Shown here: piece after piece, positions 1 through 20,433 of the stretch
Numbering within the stretch: the first letter of the stretch is position 1
How the letters are laid out: each line of letters opens with the position of its first letter
Source of the DNA: a virus
IMG/VR virus record: IMGVR_UViG_3300000154_000017
Span: 1-21,711 of that record
Length of the DNA: 21,711 nucleotides
Reading direction: 5' to 3' (one strand)
Position numbers and translations under genes: made by a program
The notes under the pieces: model-generated
Told to the model about the DNA's origin: nothing
Seen by the model: the letters and a program-made list of their open reading frames with translations, nothing else
The model's database searches: none

Positions 1-214
1 GTTTTGTAAGCGGGGGAAAGCCACGGGGTCGAGTGGTGACGACCAAGTGATGGACGTAAACTCAGCGTCCAAAAATAAATGAATAAGACCGAGTGGGTCA
101 CCTCCGCATGCGGGTAAGCACCCCCGCAGGGCAACCTTGGATGGTTGCAACTCCCCAAGCTCTCCTTTCCCCGCAGGGGTCGCCATAATTGGCACGGAGA
201 CTTGGGGTTTTTTT
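1..214 (+). ncRNA. Possible structured RNA ending in an intrinsic terminator
   Basis: No protein gene is supported here, but the plus strand is dense in complementary segments. GCGGGGG (10-16) can pair with CCCCCGC (121-127), enclosing a multi-branched domain. Inside it are TGGACG/CGTCCA (51-56 with 66-71) and GACC/GGTC (87-90 with 96-99); GGTGAC (35-40) can alternatively pair with GTCACC (97-102). CCAC/GTGG and GGTC/GACC between 21 and 44 interleave as an H-type pseudoknot would. A GCAACC/GGTTGC hairpin (131-136 with 143-148) and then a terminator follow. I do not recognise the family, and the RNA may begin left of the window. Hand folding cannot exclude chance pairing in GC-rich DNA, so this is a hypothesis. 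Confidence 0.35.
153..214 (+). terminator. Intrinsic terminator with a branched stem
   Basis: CCCCAAG (153-159) pairs with CTTGGGG (201-207). After a single bulged C, TCTCC (161-165) pairs with GGAGA (196-200), giving 12 bp, directly followed by seven T (208-214). The apical part holds a small CCCC-GCA-GGGG hairpin (169-179). The T-tract sets the direction as plus strand. No plus-strand protein gene precedes it in the window, so it ends either an RNA gene here or a transcript entering from the left. Confidence 0.75.
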
Positions 215-230
215 ATGCCCAAAAATAGTG

Positions 231-236
231 TATACT
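231..236 (+). promoter_or_regulatory. Isolated -10-like TATACT between two terminators
   Basis: TATACT (231-236) matches the sigma-70 -10 hexamer and sits in GTATACTA, the same 8-mer found at the plus-strand promoter near 1322. There is no good -35: the 17-bp position is only T-rich. A start near 243 would give a transcript of about 50 nt consisting almost only of the next hairpin. Nine bases here, TAGTGTATA (226-234), recur inverted at 296-304 on the other side of that hairpin. This could be a promoter remnant, an operator half-site or chance. Confidence 0.2.
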
Positions 237-253
237 AGGTACATCCTTTCGCT

Positions 254-293
254 AAAGCCCCCATGTCAAACAATTCTTGGCGTGGGGGTTTTT
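254..293 (+). terminator. Intrinsic terminator beyond the holin stop codon
   Basis: CCCCCATG (258-265) pairs with CGTGGGGG (281-288), with one G-T wobble and a 15-nt loop, followed by five T (289-293). Weaker pairs extend the stem outwards (254-257). The T-tract favours plus-strand termination. Read on the minus strand the same stem is followed only by CTTTAGC, so it may also stop the holin transcript, which ends at 295, but less efficiently. It separates plus-strand transcription on the left from the lysis genes. Confidence 0.65.
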
Positions 294-294
294 G

Positions 295-912
295 CTATAC
301 ACTAATCCATGTTTCACACTTAGAGCAAAAGAACCTCTCTGAACCCCTCTCTACAATATAGACGGTGTGGCAGTCAGGGCACTCTTTGTAAAATGGCTCC
401 ATTTTGGTCCCGTTGAGCGGCTTATCGGACCCCTGGTCAAGCACCAAGGTCTTAGTTTCTTCATCAACATGATCTTTCAGGTGTTGCTTCACATACTCTT
501 TTTGAAACACCTTAATGACTTCCGCTTTTCTTTTGACAGAACCGTACTTTTCAATGCTTCGACCAATCCCATAGATTCCACCGATGGAACCCAATAGCGC
601 CCAAAGTTCCGGTGGAATCGTCAGTGAGCGGAACTCACCTGATTGAAGCATCAAAAGAAACTGAAAGACGATATGATTCCAAACCACCAAAGAAAAAAGA
701 AGCCACATAAAAGCAGGTCGCCAACCCCCCACAAAGAAATTACCGGCGGAAGCTTCCGCAAGATTTGTCTGACGCTCAAGAATAGCCTGCGCTCTTTCAT
801 GCTTTAACTCCCTAGATTTTATGGCTTTTTTGGAATCAGGAATGTACCCCGTGACCTTTTTAACCAATGGCTCTATTAGTTTTGCAGGATTTAGCAGGGA
901 CAATAGGTTCAT
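295..912 (-). CDS. Holin of the GTA 3-TM type with C-terminal zinc ribbon
   Basis: This 205-aa protein probably forms the inner-membrane lesion that releases endolysin. Residues 58-72 (GNFFVGGWRPAFMWL) and 98-122 (IPPELWALLGSIGGIYG, then GRSIEK) match the pattern of the 'holin of 3TMs, gene-transfer release' family: a short gap, GWRP, two hydrophobic helices (about 66-90 and 101-117), and a basic residue plus EK after the last helix. A charged helix (25-50) precedes the membrane part. After a hydrophilic linker the protein ends in CPDC (178-181) and CSKC (196-199), a classical four-cysteine zinc ribbon that I do not expect in this family. ATG at 912 overlaps the upstream TGA as ATGA, with GGGGAAG upstream, so it is translationally coupled to the 130-aa gene. 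No endolysin is in the window. The holin call is good by family pattern; the ribbon's role is unknown. Confidence 0.8.
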   Translation of the reverse strand: MNLLSLLNPAKLIEPLVKKVTGYIPDSKKAIKSRELKHERAQAILERQTNLAEASAGNFFVGGWRPAFMWLLFSLVVWNHIVFQFLLMLQSGEFRSLTIPPELWALLGSIGGIYGIGRSIEKYGSVKRKAEVIKVFQKEYVKQHLKDHVDEETKTLVLDQGSDKPLNGTKMEPFYKECPDCHTVYIVERGSERFFCSKCETWISV

Positions 913-1301
913 AAATACTCAGGCTTCCCCTCAAACATTTTTTCGATTTTGGTGTTGACCGTATTTTTGATTTCGTTGAGAAAAGGTTCAGTATCAATAC
1001 CCGTCTCTTTCTCTACTGCCTCAACCAAGGACTCTAGGATGGCTTGCGCTTGCTCCAGGTCTTCCTCGGCGTCTCTAAGGCTCATAGCACGACCTTTTGC
1101 TAAGTTTTTGAGGTCGTAGATATGGTCTAAAACTGGCTTAGGTATCTCAAGCCTAACTCTATCCCCGTCAACCTCAAGGATCAATTCAGCCATCGGGTAT
1201 GCCTTGATGACTTCCCCTGCGGTTTCTTTAAGCCCTCTGTAAAACAACCGTTTCCAAATATCCTTGATTCGTTCACGCAATGGAACCCATTTTGAAGCCA
1301 T
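909..1301 (-). CDS. Unknown 130-aa protein coupled to the holin
   Basis: I do not recognise this protein. Residues 1-30 are basic and amphipathic (KWVPLRERIKDIWKRLF). A short beta-like segment (38-54) includes the strand pair LILEVDGDRVRLEI, and residues 60-125 are helical and acidic with probable coiled coil. There is no membrane segment or signal peptide. It is the first gene of a minus-strand pair with the holin, overlapping it by 4 bp. ATG at 1301 follows a GGGGG ribosome site about 7 nt upstream and a good promoter 30-60 bp upstream. By position it could be a lysis accessory or a structural protein, but nothing in the sequence decides this. Confidence 0.7.
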   Translation of the reverse strand: MASKWVPLRERIKDIWKRLFYRGLKETAGEVIKAYPMAELILEVDGDRVRLEIPKPVLDHIYDLKNLAKGRAMSLRDAEEDLEQAQAILESLVEAVEKETGIDTEPFLNEIKNTVNTKIEKMFEGKPEYL

Positions 1302-1328
1302 TAAAATCCCCCTATGTTTTGGTATACT
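1301..1328 (+). promoter_or_regulatory. Plus-strand promoter of the 157/150-aa operon
   Basis: The -10 TATACT (1323-1328) is good; the best -35 is TTAAAA (1301-1306), 16 bp away and only 4 of 6. Initiation would fall near 1335, one or two bases before the ATG at 1337, so the first message would be essentially leaderless. Only a weak AAGAG is available as a ribosome site. The promoter faces and overlaps the minus-strand holin promoter. Confidence 0.45.
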
Positions 1329-1337
1329 AAGAGTATA
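1323..1337. promoter_or_regulatory. 15-bp palindrome joining two opposed -10 hexamers
   Basis: TATACT-AAG-AGTATA is a perfect 6-bp inverted repeat with a 3-bp centre. Each arm is the -10 of one of the two opposed promoters. The palindrome ends on the first base of the 157-aa start codon. Size and symmetry suit a dimeric HTH repressor; the 150-aa XRE-like protein of the same operon is the obvious candidate. That link is inference. Confidence 0.4.
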
Positions 1338-1360
1338 TGCTGATAATTTATAAAAGTGAA
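1332..1360 (-). promoter_or_regulatory. Sigma-70-type promoter for the 130-aa protein and holin
   Basis: Read on the minus strand, -35 TTCACT (1360-1355; 4 of 6 matches to TTGACA) is separated by exactly 17 bp from -10 TATACT (1337-1332; 5 of 6). Transcription should start near 1325, leaving a leader of about 24 nt with a GGGGG ribosome site before ATG at 1301. The -35 lies inside the first codons of the oppositely oriented 157-aa gene. This is the best promoter I see in the window. Confidence 0.6.
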
Positions 1361-5700: not shown

Positions 5701-8700
5701 TACCTGCAAGTGACAAGGCTTCCGTAGTTGCTTCAATGAAGGGGTGTAGTGAGTTGATTACTTCCCATTTAAACCTTTCTTTAGACACCCAATTCATATC
5801 ACTTGTTTCGACCTTCTCATCCAATAGATGTTCCCGAATAGAAACTTGTTGAGAGGAATATGGGCTACTCGCAGCGTGACGAGCCTTCTTACTGAGTTCT
5901 CTTAGGTTTGACAGCGCGCCTTTCCCCGCATACTTTGGAAAGCGATTCTCAAAGGACTTAAAGAATCTTGGGGCTAGCGCCCTTGTTTTCCCAGGAGCCA
6001 TCACGTACCCCTCTAAAAATGAAGCAAACCCGTACTTAGCAAGGGCTTGTCTTTCCTCGAAACCACCCGCGTCTATCTTGAACTTGGATAGAATTTCGTG
6101 CTTGTCTTTTGCTGAGAGCATATTGCCAAGTTCGTCGGAATACTCATCTACTACCCTTTTCCCAAGAAACCCACCCTCGACACGCATTGAGTCTGCCTGT
6201 AATCTAAGGTACTGCCTGAATTTCCCCTCTTTGACATACCCTGATAAAGTTGCGGGGTCTAGCTCAGGGATGTGCCAATCCTCGGCAGATTGCTTGACCG
6301 TCTTTTGTCCACGGGTGTTATGCCATACACGCTTATTAAATAGCTCCGAGAACCCCTGTAGAACAGTCTTAGGCTCTATTCGTTCTGTACTATCCTCCAT
6401 ATCAAGGTCGGTCTCTAGGGGCAGGTGGTGTTCTTCTTGGTTGGTGGCGTTCTTGTTTCTTGTTGCTGGCTCCTTGATTTGGAATAGTGGCCCATTAAAC
6501 TCCTCTTGTGATATGTCAACCTCAGACAGGTCTAGTCCACCTGTTTTACCGACTTGCTCAGTGAAAGACTCATACTCCGATGGCTTAAATCCATACTTTG
6601 AGAAGAGTTCTACCTCAACCTCAGACCCATAACGCTGTGCCATACCCACTAATGACTTTAGCCAATCAACTATTTTTGATAAAAAGGACTTATCATCCCC
6701 CTTATACCCAGCCACATCCTCAAAGAATCTACGGCCATTTTCAGCAAACAACTCCCTTGAATCAGTCGTCCAATCACCGCCCTCACTAACACCGTATTGT
6801 CTGCGTAGATCAATGGTCTCTTCATCGGTCAGCAACCCTTCAAGAGCATGGATATTTTCATGGATCAAAGTACCCAAGTCAGCGTCCTTGAAGAACCTAA
6901 GAACGGACTTCCCACCCTCTATGCTGAATGCACCTGCCACCTGTCCGGTTTCCGTAGGCTGGTTGGTAAATAAATCCATCCCTTGGGGCGCATTTTGTCT
7001 CTCCCACCACTGGGAAGAGTCGTTGTTGGTGCCGTCTATCCTATCAGCGTACTCCTGAGTTCCAGCCGTTGGCACCGTATCGTCTAGTGCGTAGGTTGCA
7101 ACATCAATATCTCCACCACTTTCTTGATTAGCCACCCTTGAGGCAGTACGCAAATTAAGTTCCACGATAAAATCAATATCACTACTTGATATATTGGGAC
7201 TATCTTTGGTTGCCTCAACATACCTAGCCCGCAACTCCTGAACCGCCTTGCCTAGTTCGGCAAGTTGGCTATCTGTTCCAATAAGCCCATACTCTGTAAG
7301 CCTAGCCCTCCGCTTCACAATGTCGTTTAGGGGGCTAGAGGTGTTTTGTATTGAGTCTAGTCTACGGAATTGATATAGAGGTTGCGTGGCAAATACAGTA
7401 CCATGTGAATCAACTGACGCTCCTGCCTCTGCCTCTTCAACGGCACTACTCATTGTCTGTAGTGCTCGGTCATGCGCCTTTTGTCGCTTAATCTGTTCCC
7501 TGCTAGGGTTCTTTTTACCCGCGTCGCGCTCTTTTTGTATCTCAAGCTCTTTATGCAGTAGGGTTATCTCATCCTCAAGGGCTAATGCTTTTTTCAATTT
7601 AAGCAACCTAGACCGCTTTGAACGATACTCATTGTCCTCTTGCTCTAGGGCATCAAATAAATCCAGAGCACTCGTAAGGTCTAAGCCAATTTCATCCCTT
7701 AGCGACTGTATCGCTACTCCAGTCGATGACGTTCTTGTTCCGTCCTTGGCTATACCAGAGGGCATTCCACCAGTGTAGTCACGGGTCTTACTACCATCGT
7801 GTTTTTTGGTGCGCTTATATGCGCCTGATGACTTAGTAAGCTTCAAGAATTTGCGTGGTATTTCAGTTCCATAGTCCAGAAAGATTTGGTCGGAGTCAAG
7901 GGGTAGATGTTTTGAGATAATTGAGTATATGGGCTTGCCAGCTAGGTCCATGTCATTTAATTCACTTATAATCCCTTCACGGGATATAGGCGTACCCTCT
8001 ACCTCTTGCGTTTTTAATTCAGGATCCACATCTGTATCCCCATAGTCCATCATGTGGCTTACGTTAGCCTGTGTGTTTTCTGTTTCGTTTAGTCTCTGGT
8101 TGAATCCATCATCGCTCATTGAGTCCATAAAGCCTTGCGAAACCCTATCCCGACCATCCCCATCAAGCCCTTCGTACCACGTTACGAACTCATCATGTGG
8201 CATCACCTCTAGTTCTGTTTTTAGCTGTGCCTCGTTATCCGCAAGCGTGGGCTCAGGTGGTCGTATGACAACGGTTTCATCAGGCGCTACAACCTCATCT
8301 TTAGGTGTTGGGAATAAGTCTAGAATTTGGTTGGTGACGGCCTCAGAGATAGCCTCCATTTCCGAGTCGCCTTGCGTTGCTATTTCTAGTGGGCTATCCC
8401 CTGCTATAACGCTTCCTGCCTCTGCCCTTAAAGCGTCTACTATTTCAGCCCCATCGTCTTTATCGGGCTTACTCACCACAGGCTGTTGTGCAATAATGGC
8501 TTTCTCAGCCCTTACCGCTTCTGCTTTATTCACAACCTCACTAATAGAGATAGGCTGCTCTACCCCTCGTGGGGCTGGTAAGCCCTCCACCCCTCGTGGG
8601 GCTGGTAAGCCCTCCACCCCTCGTGGGGCTGGTAAGCCCTCCACCCCTCGTGGGGCTGGTAAGCCCTCCACCACATGGGTCGATTCCTGGTACTCCTTAA

Positions 8701-10261
8701 AGCCGTCTAATCCATCGCCTAAGTCAGGGCGTACCCTAACAACCTCTTGGTGGTTAGGCTTCTCTCCGCTCTCTACACGCTCAAACCTGCTGTCTATTTC
8801 CGCGCGAACAACCCCGCGCTCATCCCTGAGTATTTCAAGGTCGGCCTCTATTTGTGAGCGTAGCTTGTCTGATACGCCAGGGGATTCCAAGGTATCCAAC
8901 CTCTCGGCGATATGCCCGTCGATTTCGGCGCTTATAGCTCGTAGCGTGCTTATCGGGGTGGCGGCCGTGTCAAGCGGCACATCCTTTAATTGGGATGGTT
9001 CGCTTCTATCCCCTCTTATGTAATCCACGGCACCCATAGCTCCACCAATAGTGGCCACCCCCGAAAGAGTTTGGTCCTTAATGGCGTAATACGACTGCAT
9101 AACCGTCATTGGCTTTCCCCTAAGCCCTATTTCTGCCTCGGTTCCAGACTGTAAATATGCCGTGGCTGTTTCTGTTCCCAATTCAACGGGTAATTCAGCC
9201 GCAACTTTTAGAGCCGTTCGCTTGCCAACGGTGTCGGTGTACATTTGCATGAACTTCTCAATGGACTTAGTCTTGGCTAGCCTTGTTGGGGCCTTGGCAA
9301 ACACTAAACCATAGGTTATGAGATTGGCAAACGCCTCTGGACCAGCCTCTTGCCACCCCACCAAAGATGCCTTAGCCTCCCATATTGCCGCTTTATCCTC
9401 TTCCCACTGTAACCTTGTAAGATTAGGGGCTTGCTTCATCCTCATATCAAAGATTCGCTTTAGTGTGTCCTGTGAAGTAGATGGCTGAATAAGTGCGATG
9501 GAGCCACCTAATGCCCCCACCCCTTGAGCAATGCCACCACCAACCGCTGGGGCAGCAACCCCTAGCCTTGCCAAACCCCCCGCTCCAAGGGCATAACCAC
9601 CCTTCATTAAAGCACCGCCCACTAAAGCACCTGCCATATTAGCCGATGAGTGTAGCCCCTCTTCAACATCGCCAGCGGTTTGGGTTCCGAATATAGTTTG
9701 CATCCCAGCCACACCGATGCCAGCACCAATAGGGCCGCCAAGCATGAACCCACCCAAGCCACCGATCATGGCCGCCATCGGGTAGTCCAGTTTTTTCATC
9801 TCCTCTGATATGCCGACAGATTCTTTATCCTTTTTCTGTTGCTCAATTTGTTCGTGATACCAATGGGAGTCTGTGTTTTTTGGATCGCCATCTTTCCAAA
9901 TAGGCACGTCAAACATCCATTGGGCCGATTGTAAGACCTTCATCTGTAGATCATCTACAACGCCAGGGGCTGACTTTATTAGCGGTATAGCCGTTCCAAA
10001 TACATTTTGAACGGGCTTAATTACATTGGAGAAAAACCCTGCTTGCTCACCTAACCTCATAACCTCTTGCCCATTATCACCGTAGCGGTTTACAACCCCA
10101 TCAATAGTGGGTGGGGGTGTAACGGGAGGTTCATAGTCAATATCAAACTCTCGCGTCTCCTCGGCTGTGGGAGCAGGTGTCGAGTACTCGTACTCGTCGG
10201 GGTCGTCTGAAAATGAGAAACCATCATCGTAAGCTAACTCAGAAAGGGGGGTATACTTCAT
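2777..10261 (-). CDS. Giant virion polyvalent protein with zincin and LPD38-like regions
   Basis: This 2494-aa protein is probably packaged in the head and ejected with the DNA. The N-terminus is acidic and Pro-rich. Residues 159-260 are Gly/Ala-rich hydrophobic segments that could insert in a membrane. Four exact 9-aa repeats lie near 531-567. A charged coiled coil spans about 870-930. A zincin region follows: strand FFKDADLGTL, then HENIH (H1134, E1135, H1138), with a candidate third ligand in ELFAEN (E1170 or E1174) and a Trp-rich helix after. Long helical segments follow. The C-terminus from about 1950 (NPAFPIANATRD, N1979) resembles LPD38 of phage polyvalent proteins. I chose ATG at 10261, not the in-frame ATG at 10312: it forms TAATG with the upstream stop, as at three other junctions, and has GAGGGGG 5 nt upstream; 10312 would overlap the upstream gene by 52 bp with no such site. 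The coding sequence is intact. Confidence 0.85.
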   Translation of the reverse strand: MKYTPLSELAYDDGFSFSDDPDEYEYSTPAPTAEETREFDIDYEPPVTPPPTIDGVVNRYGDNGQEVMRLGEQAGFFSNVIKPVQNVFGTAIPLIKSAPGVVDDLQMKVLQSAQWMFDVPIWKDGDPKNTDSHWYHEQIEQQKKDKESVGISEEMKKLDYPMAAMIGGLGGFMLGGPIGAGIGVAGMQTIFGTQTAGDVEEGLHSSANMAGALVGGALMKGGYALGAGGLARLGVAAPAVGGGIAQGVGALGGSIALIQPSTSQDTLKRIFDMRMKQAPNLTRLQWEEDKAAIWEAKASLVGWQEAGPEAFANLITYGLVFAKAPTRLAKTKSIEKFMQMYTDTVGKRTALKVAAELPVELGTETATAYLQSGTEAEIGLRGKPMTVMQSYYAIKDQTLSGVATIGGAMGAVDYIRGDRSEPSQLKDVPLDTAATPISTLRAISAEIDGHIAERLDTLESPGVSDKLRSQIEADLEILRDERGVVRAEIDSRFERVESGEKPNHQEVVRVRPDLGDGLDGFKEYQESTHVVEGLPAPRGVEGLPAPRGVEGLPAPRGVEGLPAPRGVEQPISISEVVNKAEAVRAEKAIIAQQPVVSKPDKDDGAEIVDALRAEAGSVIAGDSPLEIATQGDSEMEAISEAVTNQILDLFPTPKDEVVAPDETVVIRPPEPTLADNEAQLKTELEVMPHDEFVTWYEGLDGDGRDRVSQGFMDSMSDDGFNQRLNETENTQANVSHMMDYGDTDVDPELKTQEVEGTPISREGIISELNDMDLAGKPIYSIISKHLPLDSDQIFLDYGTEIPRKFLKLTKSSGAYKRTKKHDGSKTRDYTGGMPSGIAKDGTRTSSTGVAIQSLRDEIGLDLTSALDLFDALEQEDNEYRSKRSRLLKLKKALALEDEITLLHKELEIQKERDAGKKNPSREQIKRQKAHDRALQTMSSAVEEAEAGASVDSHGTVFATQPLYQFRRLDSIQNTSSPLNDIVKRRARLTEYGLIGTDSQLAELGKAVQELRARYVEATKDSPNISSSDIDFIVELNLRTASRVANQESGGDIDVATYALDDTVPTAGTQEYADRIDGTNNDSSQWWERQNAPQGMDLFTNQPTETGQVAGAFSIEGGKSVLRFFKDADLGTLIHENIHALEGLLTDEETIDLRRQYGVSEGGDWTTDSRELFAENGRRFFEDVAGYKGDDKSFLSKIVDWLKSLVGMAQRYGSEVEVELFSKYGFKPSEYESFTEQVGKTGGLDLSEVDISQEEFNGPLFQIKEPATRNKNATNQEEHHLPLETDLDMEDSTERIEPKTVLQGFSELFNKRVWHNTRGQKTVKQSAEDWHIPELDPATLSGYVKEGKFRQYLRLQADSMRVEGGFLGKRVVDEYSDELGNMLSAKDKHEILSKFKIDAGGFEERQALAKYGFASFLEGYVMAPGKTRALAPRFFKSFENRFPKYAGKGALSNLRELSKKARHAASSPYSSQQVSIREHLLDEKVETSDMNWVSKERFKWEVINSLHPFIEATTEALSLAGIEVPLSKADATDYISKMNGVLTALNSMGTEVEKYIMDGLKSFDHESTMSPGVIELFKMGGENKTVDQIISAIDLASDLKISRRTIPLVERENIRIIGSALEPMLGFIYKSRLLEPLWDTTDQVIADIYQYTTETETVSSSELFGFMTSIMDEVDLVIEDARAAQKALLEIDDEGGETKAAASVIRRLEGMKVKMPELLAKGLSKSTQLLAEGKKELFKQLITGELGGEESDYDTAIERVKVFSKREDYDTLIKMGDFIENWYKQLAQYSVDAQLYTQAFMDAMQEENIDYIQLQRVMTEDSTFHQAVQRESGGGDSIVRHKELIHKFMGSSKPVENTLMQMMAHTRNVVVAAHKNEVWRYFREIMLMTNDISQGATQNMAHQLDKDEVTEMKEAAFDTLIHRAKKGTPGTVAIFINGKPEYWKPAQDIKEAADTMVQESLNVPFLSKALKLWQSFALLNPAFPIANATRDYQNAGVVSADEVEKSYLAGFLGSLPLVGKYLKNSIKTAILNPTLRGEALAKVLESGTAVGWSSAFNEKHFETLLRRFLKEAASDGTKVIDPKKLRNLPKYVFQDMFQPLLGGSEILNRIPEFHKHYVDAKAKGLGEREAIQYAGYRQAGLNNFARIGRSMAKLSSLSPFMRPTITGMDSFYQAFKRSPGAVTGRMLLMNAPIVGLEMMVASESGDLEEWMNLPMWRRALTFNFPMPDVMRELGFPKWLTIPRGHSAGIVFAPIIASYEMIAGEGGDDMGKAMEAVSLGASSINPLDFTNILGPILSTPYEMQTGYDTFSQYHYIPGHEKGLPVPKRDISRASRLNKEIYFAVNNFFENFGVDVEYDPRNVDHAIRKLVPYWGSKALNLSNVAEDGVGAIFRTALSGLTGVTRNHKVTQDARVRKMYDVIKSYPDAKKSSSYKLFKENLPKLEELRQKPREYDELSRRLVELAQRVSKNFKTHARKAHKEGFKKQIEKHETSLGK
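8562..8669 (-). repeat. Four perfect tandem 27-bp repeats inside the giant gene
   Basis: Four identical copies (8562-8588, 8589-8615, 8616-8642, 8643-8669) each encode the 9 residues VEGLPAPRG in the frame of the giant protein, followed by a break at the right side. There is no divergence between copies at any codon position, which indicates recent or ongoing copy-number change. The length is a multiple of 3, so gain or loss keeps the frame. The site is a disordered linker between the membrane-like N-terminal segments and the coiled-coil/zincin part. Confidence 0.97.
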
Positions 10262-11538
10262 TATTCCCCCTCTTGATTCCTTGGGTGCTTTACTTTGTAG
10301 TCTTTTTTCCATTGACCACTTCTGATATATCTTCTAAATCCTCTCAAGGTCTCCATCTGCTTTTTTTTGACGACCTCCACATTGACCCCCCACCATTTCC
10401 CAGGGACCTCTCTCGTTACCTCTTTTAGTGACTCCGACTCAAGGTAATAGCCAAACAATTCTACTACCGATGGCATGACGGGTTTACCATTGCGCTTGAA
10501 TCTACCAACCCATTTACCTATACCCGTAGTCTTATCCACCTCGATTGTGGCGAATACCTCCTCCTGGATTTGCAGTAGCCCATTCTCAAGGTCTTCCCTG
10601 CTAAGCCCCTGCCTCTCACGGTCGGCCTTCACAATACCCCGCCTTTCCAATAAAACCAGGGCACCCCTAGCTAACTCCTGTTTCGCCCTCTTTCGAATGG
10701 GTTCTTTTATTCTATTTTCAAGGGTTAGGCTACGTGTTGCAGATAAATCAAGCTCACCCTGACGCTTCGCCCTTTTTAGCTCAGGGTCTTGTCCGTTGTT
10801 AAGTCGATCTCCCAAGACCTTACGAAGCTCTTTCACATTGGAAAACTTTTGCCCCGCCAATGTAATTAAGAACTCTTTTCTATTCTCGTCAGGCATGAAT
10901 TGTCCAGGTTTTAGCAGGTGTTCAGTTATGAGTGGTGAGTAGGCATCAAGAAGGCGGTCTGTTGAGTCCTTATCGTCTTTTGGAATCGACATCAACTGCG
11001 TGGCAAACGTAACCACCTTATCGCCTAGTTCTTTAGCCCTCTCATCTAACCTCAAGTCCTGCAACTGCTTTTGGCTTTTGACACCCTTCATCCCCTGATT
11101 AAATTTTTTCATAAGGTCTGGGTCCACGCCTTGGGACAAGAACAGATTAGACCATTTCGAAACACTATCCTCATCATAGCCAATGCCTTGTCCGGCACCC
11201 TTGACCAATGCGTTTTGAAACTTCTCCTCACCCTTCCGCTTTCTTTTTAAGCTACCTAGTTTAATTCCCTGCTCTTCTTTGAGCATGTTTTGACGCTCTT
11301 GTGCCATACCAAGCTTTTCGCGTGACATCCCCATCCGCTCTTTATCCATGCCTAGTTTTGTGTCGGCCATGGCGTTTTGCTTCTGCTGCTGCTGTTGCTT
11401 CTGCTGGTCTAAGCGGTCACGGCGTTCAATCTTATTCAGCGTCAATGCGTTTCTAAGCCCTTGTTCGGGGTGTAAGTCAATGGGCTTAAACCTCTCTATG
11501 TCTTTCAACGGTCGCATTCCAGGCATTGGTGATACCAT
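10261..11538 (-). CDS. Probable internal virion (ejection) protein, 425 aa
   Basis: I cannot assign this to a family by sequence. Residues 40-55 are Gln/Lys-rich (a run of Q at 49-52). Residues 62-95 carry an imperfect 7-residue repeat of the form LGM-x-[KR]-E-R/K, predicting a long charged helix or coiled coil. Residues 105-260 look helical, and the C-terminal third is mixed and basic (KWVGRFKRNGKP; WKKDYKVKHP). There is no signal peptide or membrane segment. It lies between two very large virion proteins, 2 bp after the stop of the 1555-aa gene and in TAATG overlap with the giant gene; P22 has gp7 and gp20 in a comparable position, so an ejection role is likely from context only. ATG at 11538 follows AAAGAGG. 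Eight A in a row near codon 390 do not lead to a useful frameshift. Confidence 0.75.
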   Translation of the reverse strand: MVSPMPGMRPLKDIERFKPIDLHPEQGLRNALTLNKIERRDRLDQQKQQQQQKQNAMADTKLGMDKERMGMSREKLGMAQERQNMLKEEQGIKLGSLKRKRKGEEKFQNALVKGAGQGIGYDEDSVSKWSNLFLSQGVDPDLMKKFNQGMKGVKSQKQLQDLRLDERAKELGDKVVTFATQLMSIPKDDKDSTDRLLDAYSPLITEHLLKPGQFMPDENRKEFLITLAGQKFSNVKELRKVLGDRLNNGQDPELKRAKRQGELDLSATRSLTLENRIKEPIRKRAKQELARGALVLLERRGIVKADRERQGLSREDLENGLLQIQEEVFATIEVDKTTGIGKWVGRFKRNGKPVMPSVVELFGYYLESESLKEVTREVPGKWWGVNVEVVKKKQMETLRGFRRYIRSGQWKKDYKVKHPRNQEGE

Positions 11539-19149: not shown

Positions 19150-19174
19150 TAAACCTCTCCTAGAATTAGTGGGA

Positions 19175-19199
19175 GTCGGGACAGACCAGCCGCCCCGAC
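19175..19199 (-). other. Hairpin between the coat gene and the next gene
   Basis: GTCGGG (19175-19180) pairs with CCCGAC (19194-19199) around a 13-nt loop, in the only sizeable gap of the late operon (69 bp). Transcribed on the minus strand, it comes 20 nt after the coat stop and is not followed by a T-tract, so it is not a classical terminator. It could stabilise the coat message or act as a processing site that uncouples coat level from the minor tail genes. Confidence 0.45.
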
Positions 19200-19218
19200 A
19201 ACCCTGATTCTCAAACGA

Positions 19219-20433
19219 TTACCCAATCAGCCTACAAGCTAACTCTGGTCGTAAGGTCTTAACCCCAAACTGAATATCTGCCCTGACTCTCTGCTGATCT
19301 GACATGAAGTCGTGATCTGCAATAATCCTGACGGAAATATCCTGGAACTTCTGACGTGCCCCAAACCTTGCGCCCACTGGAACCTCTAAAGGCACAACGC
19401 CCATAATGAAAGCGTCTTTATGAAACGCTAGGTTCTGTGGGTGTGTCTCGTCGGCTCCACCCGTTTTGAACACCAATGCTGCCGTGGTGACAGGGAGCGC
19501 ATCAATAGTCGCATACGGGGCATTCCCAGACGTGTCCGCAGCACTTCTAAACTCTGGGCTAAAGTTGAGAACAGCCGCACCAGCACCATCCGAAGTAGCA
19601 TCGGCAGTCAGCGTGTAATTACGCAATGCGCCCGTACTCACATACGACCTAGTGTTGATTGCGTTCACACCTGCAATCGTGAAAACATCACCCTTTTTAA
19701 GGGTTTTGCTCACACCAGCACCAGCCACCGTCATCGAAGTGTCTCCCTCGGCTATAGAGCCATCGTTGATCGTGATCCCAGCGTAGGTACAGCTACCCGT
19801 AAGGTGGCTATTAACTTGTTGATCCATAAAGAAGTCCATTTGGAGGAGTTCACCAACCCGACCCTTACGAACCAAACCCTCAGCTAGGGATTGATTGAAG
19901 TATGACTTCAAATCCCCTGTGGTTAGCTTGTTGTTCATAGCTGGGCCCATAACAAAGCAGCGGTCCTCATGCGGAACGTTTTCCTCGTTCAATAACTGCT
20001 GAACATCACCGATAATACCAAGAGTCGATGGCGTAGTTCCAGGTGTCCCAATGACATTATAGATGTCCGTATACAGCCCCAATACCGTTTGATTGACTTG
20101 GTGGGCCAAGGCAATCGATGCTGGCTTTGCATAGCGCTCTCGGTAATTCTTCATAGACATCGTAAGGTCTTGAGTCGAGTGGTCCCAAGACGTGTTAAAC
20201 CTTTGGTCAATGGTTAGAGTTTGCTTCTTCTCTACCGTGTCTGGAATGCTTGCAATGACGGCACCACTTACAGCCTTCATTTTAACAGGTTCCAAAATAT
20301 CCACAGATTGTCCAATCTTTTTGAACTCCTTAGTGTATTGTGTGTTGATAAGACCCATGGCTACTAATTGAGCGGACAGGTCGATTGCGATGGCCTCAGC
20401 CACCATGTTAGGCGTAATAATTACATCAGCCAT
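19219..20433 (-). CDS. Major capsid protein, P22 coat (gp5) family
   Basis: This 404-aa protein builds the icosahedral shell. The N-terminus (ITPNMVAEAIAIDLSAQLVA, then INTQYTKEFKKIGQSVDILEP) and the block FNTSWDHSTQDLTMSMKNY, then RYAKPASIALAHQVNQ follow the P22 coat pattern: an N-terminal helix, 'Y..EF...G..V.I..P', and 'FS.QDLTLS...Y..RY..PA...LANQVD'. Residues about 215-310 are a Gly/Thr/Ala-rich beta segment in the place of the P22 insertion domain, and QRVRADIQFGVKTLRPELAC ends the HK97-type fold. GGAGG lies 5-9 nt before the ATG, one of the strongest sites in the window, as suits the most abundant virion protein. Confidence 0.93.
   Translation of the reverse strand: MADVIITPNMVAEAIAIDLSAQLVAMGLINTQYTKEFKKIGQSVDILEPVKMKAVSGAVIASIPDTVEKKQTLTIDQRFNTSWDHSTQDLTMSMKNYRERYAKPASIALAHQVNQTVLGLYTDIYNVIGTPGTTPSTLGIIGDVQQLLNEENVPHEDRCFVMGPAMNNKLTTGDLKSYFNQSLAEGLVRKGRVGELLQMDFFMDQQVNSHLTGSCTYAGITINDGSIAEGDTSMTVAGAGVSKTLKKGDVFTIAGVNAINTRSYVSTGALRNYTLTADATSDGAGAAVLNFSPEFRSAADTSGNAPYATIDALPVTTAALVFKTGGADETHPQNLAFHKDAFIMGVVPLEVPVGARFGARQKFQDISVRIIADHDFMSDQQRVRADIQFGVKTLRPELACRLIG

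Follow-up and report, generated by a model that had tools for sequence, protein, structure and literature searches.

The question raised by this locus is how two opposed gene units, one of them encoding a holin, could be transcribed from a divergent gap of 35 bp (1302-1336, a length that presupposes a start of the 157-aa frame at ATG 1337). The window, i.e. the whole stretch of DNA analysed, is a complete IMG/VR virus record of 21,711 bases and covers part of the genome of a podovirus-like phage. Every late gene is encoded on the minus strand (scaffold, P22-like coat protein, head-closure Hc3, several long proteins, TerS, a 130-aa protein and the holin), and a pair of plus-strand frames of 157 and 150 aa is located between TerS and the 130-aa gene. 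The gap between the 130-aa/holin unit and the 157/150-aa unit is thus a divergent junction at which a promoter is needed.

In the minus-strand unit, the 130-aa gene (909-1301) has no family match and its function is unassigned. Its coding score (0.20) was like that of the late genes, and it is preceded by a strong Shine-Dalgarno sequence, AGGGGGA (1307-1313, minus strand; duplex energy -9.3 kcal/mol). Its stop overlaps the start of the holin gene (295-912, minus strand), whose identity had been proposed from the sequence and was established here by matches to PF11351 (E 7.3e-12, 46.3 bits against a cut-off of 24.8) and phrog_3427 (E 9.4e-16). The holin is of the GTA_holin_3TM type with a C-terminal zinc-ribbon-like tail, and its codon-usage score was low (0.06). 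No endolysin was recognised in the 130-aa/holin unit.

The earlier note described an inverted repeat, TATACT-AAG-AGTATA, at 1323-1337, and direct reading together with a promoter scan showed that all of its coordinates were correct. The repeat is perfect, with 6-bp arms that supply one -10 hexamer per strand, and reads TATACTAAGAGTATA. Both promoters proposed on it were present: on the plus strand, a weak -35 (TTAAAA, 1301-1306, overlapping the 130-aa start codon), a 16-bp spacer and TATACT (1323-1328); on the minus strand, a weak -35 (TTCACT, 1360-1355, within the 157-aa frame), a 17-bp spacer and TATACT (1337-1332). Each -10 matches the consensus at five of six positions and each -35 at four of six, the spacing is legal on both sides, and the consensus score is 9/12 for either promoter. 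These elements, their spacing and the gene context were read directly from the DNA. When the usual distance of 7 nt from -10 to +1 is applied, the predicted start is an A on both strands (1335 on plus, 1325 on minus); these starts would be separated by 10 bp, and each would fall within the -10 of the other promoter, in line with the earlier note. The geometry of opposed sigma70-type promoters on one palindrome also agrees with the further claim that two polymerases would exclude each other.

How often such an arrangement arises by chance was estimated in several ways. Neither promoter match is significant alone, as the first 4 kb contained 8 promoter-like sites of this quality, compared with 6.2 +/- 2.7 in shuffles. 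The symmetry of the repeat means that a -10 on one strand necessarily creates the other, and the two hexamers count as one coincidence, not two. Outward -10s on both strands were found in 2.2% of random 35-bp intervals of the window, and in 1.0% at a spacing of 10, 18 or 23 bp. The corresponding values in AT-matched simulated gaps were 18% and 8%, which are overestimates because the AT-matched model includes the palindrome; a 6-bp palindrome was present in about 5% of these gaps. Overall, the chance rate was roughly 1-8% of gaps. The full palindrome has one copy in the window, and copies with up to three mismatches (11 including the exact one, 8 expected) were at chance level. A set of 22 short divergent gaps (20-60 bp), called heuristically in related podovirus contigs, contained no symmetric -10s.

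The frequency of equally good promoter matches in shuffles, and the simulated rates of up to 8% for the geometry and about 5% for the palindrome, would suit a reading in which an AT-rich palindrome arose by chance and has no promoter role, the true promoters lying elsewhere or being those of a phage-specific polymerase. This reading is improbable, as 1323-1337 is the only -10 pair in the window with exactly 10-bp spacing, it falls exactly in a short divergent gap, and the rate in real intervals is about 1%. The site is suitably positioned and its arrangement is of moderate rarity; as a promoter it remains a prediction not proven by sequence alone.

The two sides of the gap are not identical in every respect. 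On the plus side alone, TGG stands directly 5' of TATACT and forms an extended -10 (1320-1328), a feature absent from the earlier note. It could indicate a single true promoter that serves the 157/150-aa unit, with the minus -10 a by-product of symmetry and the 130-aa/holin genes read from the late operon through the cassette in antisense. The late genes do form one long minus-strand array ending in the 130-aa/holin genes, which could simply be read from it, and the minus-strand scan detected no terminator-like site between TerS and the 130-aa gene. Nevertheless, the minus side scores as well against the consensus, its predicted start is also an A, and the 24-nt leader, which contains a Shine-Dalgarno sequence, is well placed; a single plus promoter is considered unlikely.

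The plus-strand unit consists of the 157-aa frame (1337-1810), which has no family match and no assigned function, and the helical 150-aa frame (1800-2252), a candidate HTH protein, which overlaps the 157-aa stop and has a strong Shine-Dalgarno sequence inside the end of the 157-aa frame. Codon-usage scores of these frames (0.03 and 0.04) exceeded those of all sampled antisense frames (mean -0.28, maximum 0.007), but were below those of structural genes (0.10 or more). Because the holin scores low too, these values give only a hint of foreign origin. Structure models of both proteins were of low confidence (pLDDT 54 for 150 aa, 37 for 157 aa). At their 3' ends, the 150-aa gene (plus) and TerS (minus) overlap by 167 bp (2086-2252), both frames being open.

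ATG 1337 has no Shine-Dalgarno sequence (-2.8 kcal/mol), whereas nearly all other genes of the window have one. With a predicted plus start at 1335, the 157-aa mRNA would be leaderless at this codon. An alternative start, TTG 1400, is preceded by AAAGGG (-5.1 kcal/mol), and the first 21 codons of the frame as counted from ATG 1337 scored poorly; if translation began at TTG 1400, the divergent gap would be 98 bp.

The earlier note had gone further and proposed a choice between lysis and a regulator, made by an HTH protein of 150 aa. Resemblance of this protein to HTH proteins was not significant: the Pfam match to HTH_60 was below threshold (E 0.31, 11.8 bits against a cut-off of 24.1), phmmer reached an HTH_3 regulator only at E 1.1 (the second-best match), and the low-confidence fold had no Foldseek match at E <= 0.001. 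A true switch, in which this protein would bind the palindrome, block both promoters or favour its own, and so decide between holin and regulator, would be in keeping with the operator-like size of the palindrome (15 bp), the helical pattern of the protein and the many best, albeit non-significant, fold matches to Xre-type repressors (P22 c2, HigA, C.BclI). However, lysis/lysogeny switches usually have several operators over divergent promoters, and here there is one exact palindrome, with no second operator above chance level; no lysogeny gene was recognised within the window, and a regulator sitting over both -10s would repress both genes instead of choosing between them. Moreover, the bidirectional promoters examined in published work do not compete at their basal level of activity (PMC12825309). 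A switch of this kind is quite improbable, and apart from the geometry the proposal found no support. More specific still, and very unlikely, is a minimal lysis control in which a product of the plus unit would bind a single palindrome that is at the same time both -10s, making holin and regulator exclusive within 35 bp, with the first gene of the regulator unit leaderless.

Searches for relatives did not recover this junction elsewhere. Single-protein scans of IMG/VR with the 157-aa, 150-aa, 130-aa, holin and TerS proteins gave no relatives, and tblastn against phage records gave no match for the 150-aa, 130-aa and holin proteins. A match of the 157-aa protein in Gordonia phage Erutan (36% over 77 aa, E 0.008) lay on the opposite strand to the annotated gene and was discounted. 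Among 103 loci of the Hc3 alignment (A3), nearly all with at most 40% identity in Hc3, none had homologues of the 130-, 157- or 150-aa proteins. The scan with the major capsid protein (MCP) detected two contigs 100% identical to the window, i.e. the same phage, both of which end before the gap. It was also observed that L114 (2695/2696) carries a 63-bp tandem duplication relative to window positions 19167-19229, at the end of the coat gene, which is either a variant or an assembly artefact.

Several other features of the window were recorded. Positions 1-222 (plus strand) are non-coding and strongly structured (MFE -91.6 kcal/mol, z -4.0); the stretch is truncated at the contig end and closes with a hairpin and U-run at 153-215 that resemble a terminator. 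Rfam gave no match in 1-2800, and the stretch is possibly a structured RNA of the phage. At 231-293 (plus strand), TATACT is followed directly by a 16-bp hairpin and a U-run (z -5.9), forming either a second plus-strand terminator or an RNA of roughly 55 nt with its own -10. Pairing of such an RNA, as an antisense, with the 157-aa mRNA was considered and rejected, the duplex energy being unexceptional compared with the rest of the window. Likewise rejected as a phage-specific promoter motif was the 8-mer GTATACTA (230 and 1322), which has three exact copies and a one-mismatch total near chance. A segment of 34 nt in the 157-aa gene (1544-1577, encoding CSKCEERVYLV) recurs inverted at the 3' end of the holin gene (232-250 and 313-327, 32/34 matching), split by about 62 nt that contain the holin stop and the hairpin, which points to the duplication of a zinc-ribbon segment and its interruption by a terminator. 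A 323-aa plus-strand ORF (8052-9023) runs antisense to the 2511-aa gene, and codon scores favour the minus strand; opposite this ORF, a VEGLPAPRG-type repeat occurs four times in the 2511-aa protein. The start given for the 2511-aa ORF (10261-10312) falls within the 425-aa gene and is preceded by a poor Shine-Dalgarno sequence, and the true start is probably further in.

The geometry of the gap matches that of a published class of promoters. Bacterial bidirectional promoters have a symmetric -10 on which polymerase loads in either orientation but never in both; in E. coli, 19% of the RNAs detected originate from them, and 24% of these promoters sit between divergent genes and yield two mRNAs; they are also enriched in acquired DNA (PMC12825309, PMC10268837). 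Their opposed starts are most often 18 bp apart, and distances of 10 and 23 bp are also common (PMC12825309). Five natural examples were tested in E. coli, and in all of them basal activity was too weak for polymerase competition, which arose only upon strong activation of one side (PMC12825309). At 1323-1337 there are symmetric -10s usable on both strands, with predicted starts 10 bp apart. As this is a published spacing, the gap is read as a bidirectional sigma70-type promoter of the 10-bp class, a reading to which we give a somewhat better than even chance; the site is probably best regarded as a further example of a known and very common kind. A caveat is that the phage could rely on an RNA polymerase or sigma factor of its own.

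If the gap is a bidirectional promoter, host RNA polymerase would load on the symmetric sequence in either orientation, and binding one way would exclude the other. In the minus orientation it would start near 1325 and produce the 130-aa/holin mRNA, whose 24-nt leader holds the strong Shine-Dalgarno sequence; in the plus orientation it would start near 1335 and produce a 157/150-aa mRNA, which would have practically no leader ahead of ATG 1337, or one of 65 nt if translation began at TTG 1400 instead. Promoter activity, start points, polymerase type and cassette origin are predictions throughout. Given the weak -35s (4/6) and the basal weakness of the published examples, the site would be a shared low-level start region for two units and not a decision switch, and, as long as neither direction is activated, transcription would probably be low in both and independent. 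The 157/150 pair is probably a small cassette with its own promoter, set against the late operon. The site by itself reveals no new mechanism; if active, it would be a clean natural phage example of the 10-bp class with a lysis gene on one arm, and would show how little intergenic DNA is needed to place a cassette next to a late operon.

Compared with known systems, the junction shares divergent promoters with the PRM/PR immunity switch of lambda, which has multiple operators, a cI/cro pair and a leaderless cI mRNA from PRM; the mRNA on the putative regulator side here may likewise be leaderless. Unlike lambda, neither multiple operators, nor a cI/cro pair, nor lysogeny genes were seen, and the opposing unit encodes a holin and not an early regulator. 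Overlapping divergent promoters are also present on plasmid pLS20, where one of Pr and Pc is thought to drive the regulator RcoLS20; that regulator is proven, and the system includes DNA looping and two multi-site operators, whereas the phage site has one palindrome and a putative regulator (PMC4207663). The bidirectional promoters described by Warman, Grainger and colleagues differ from the present site, which is predicted from sequence only in an uncultured phage and has its hexamers 3 bp apart in a perfect inverted repeat, but they resemble it in the symmetric -10, starts 10 bp apart, the position between divergent genes and the expected exclusive binding of polymerase (PMC12825309, PMC10268837).
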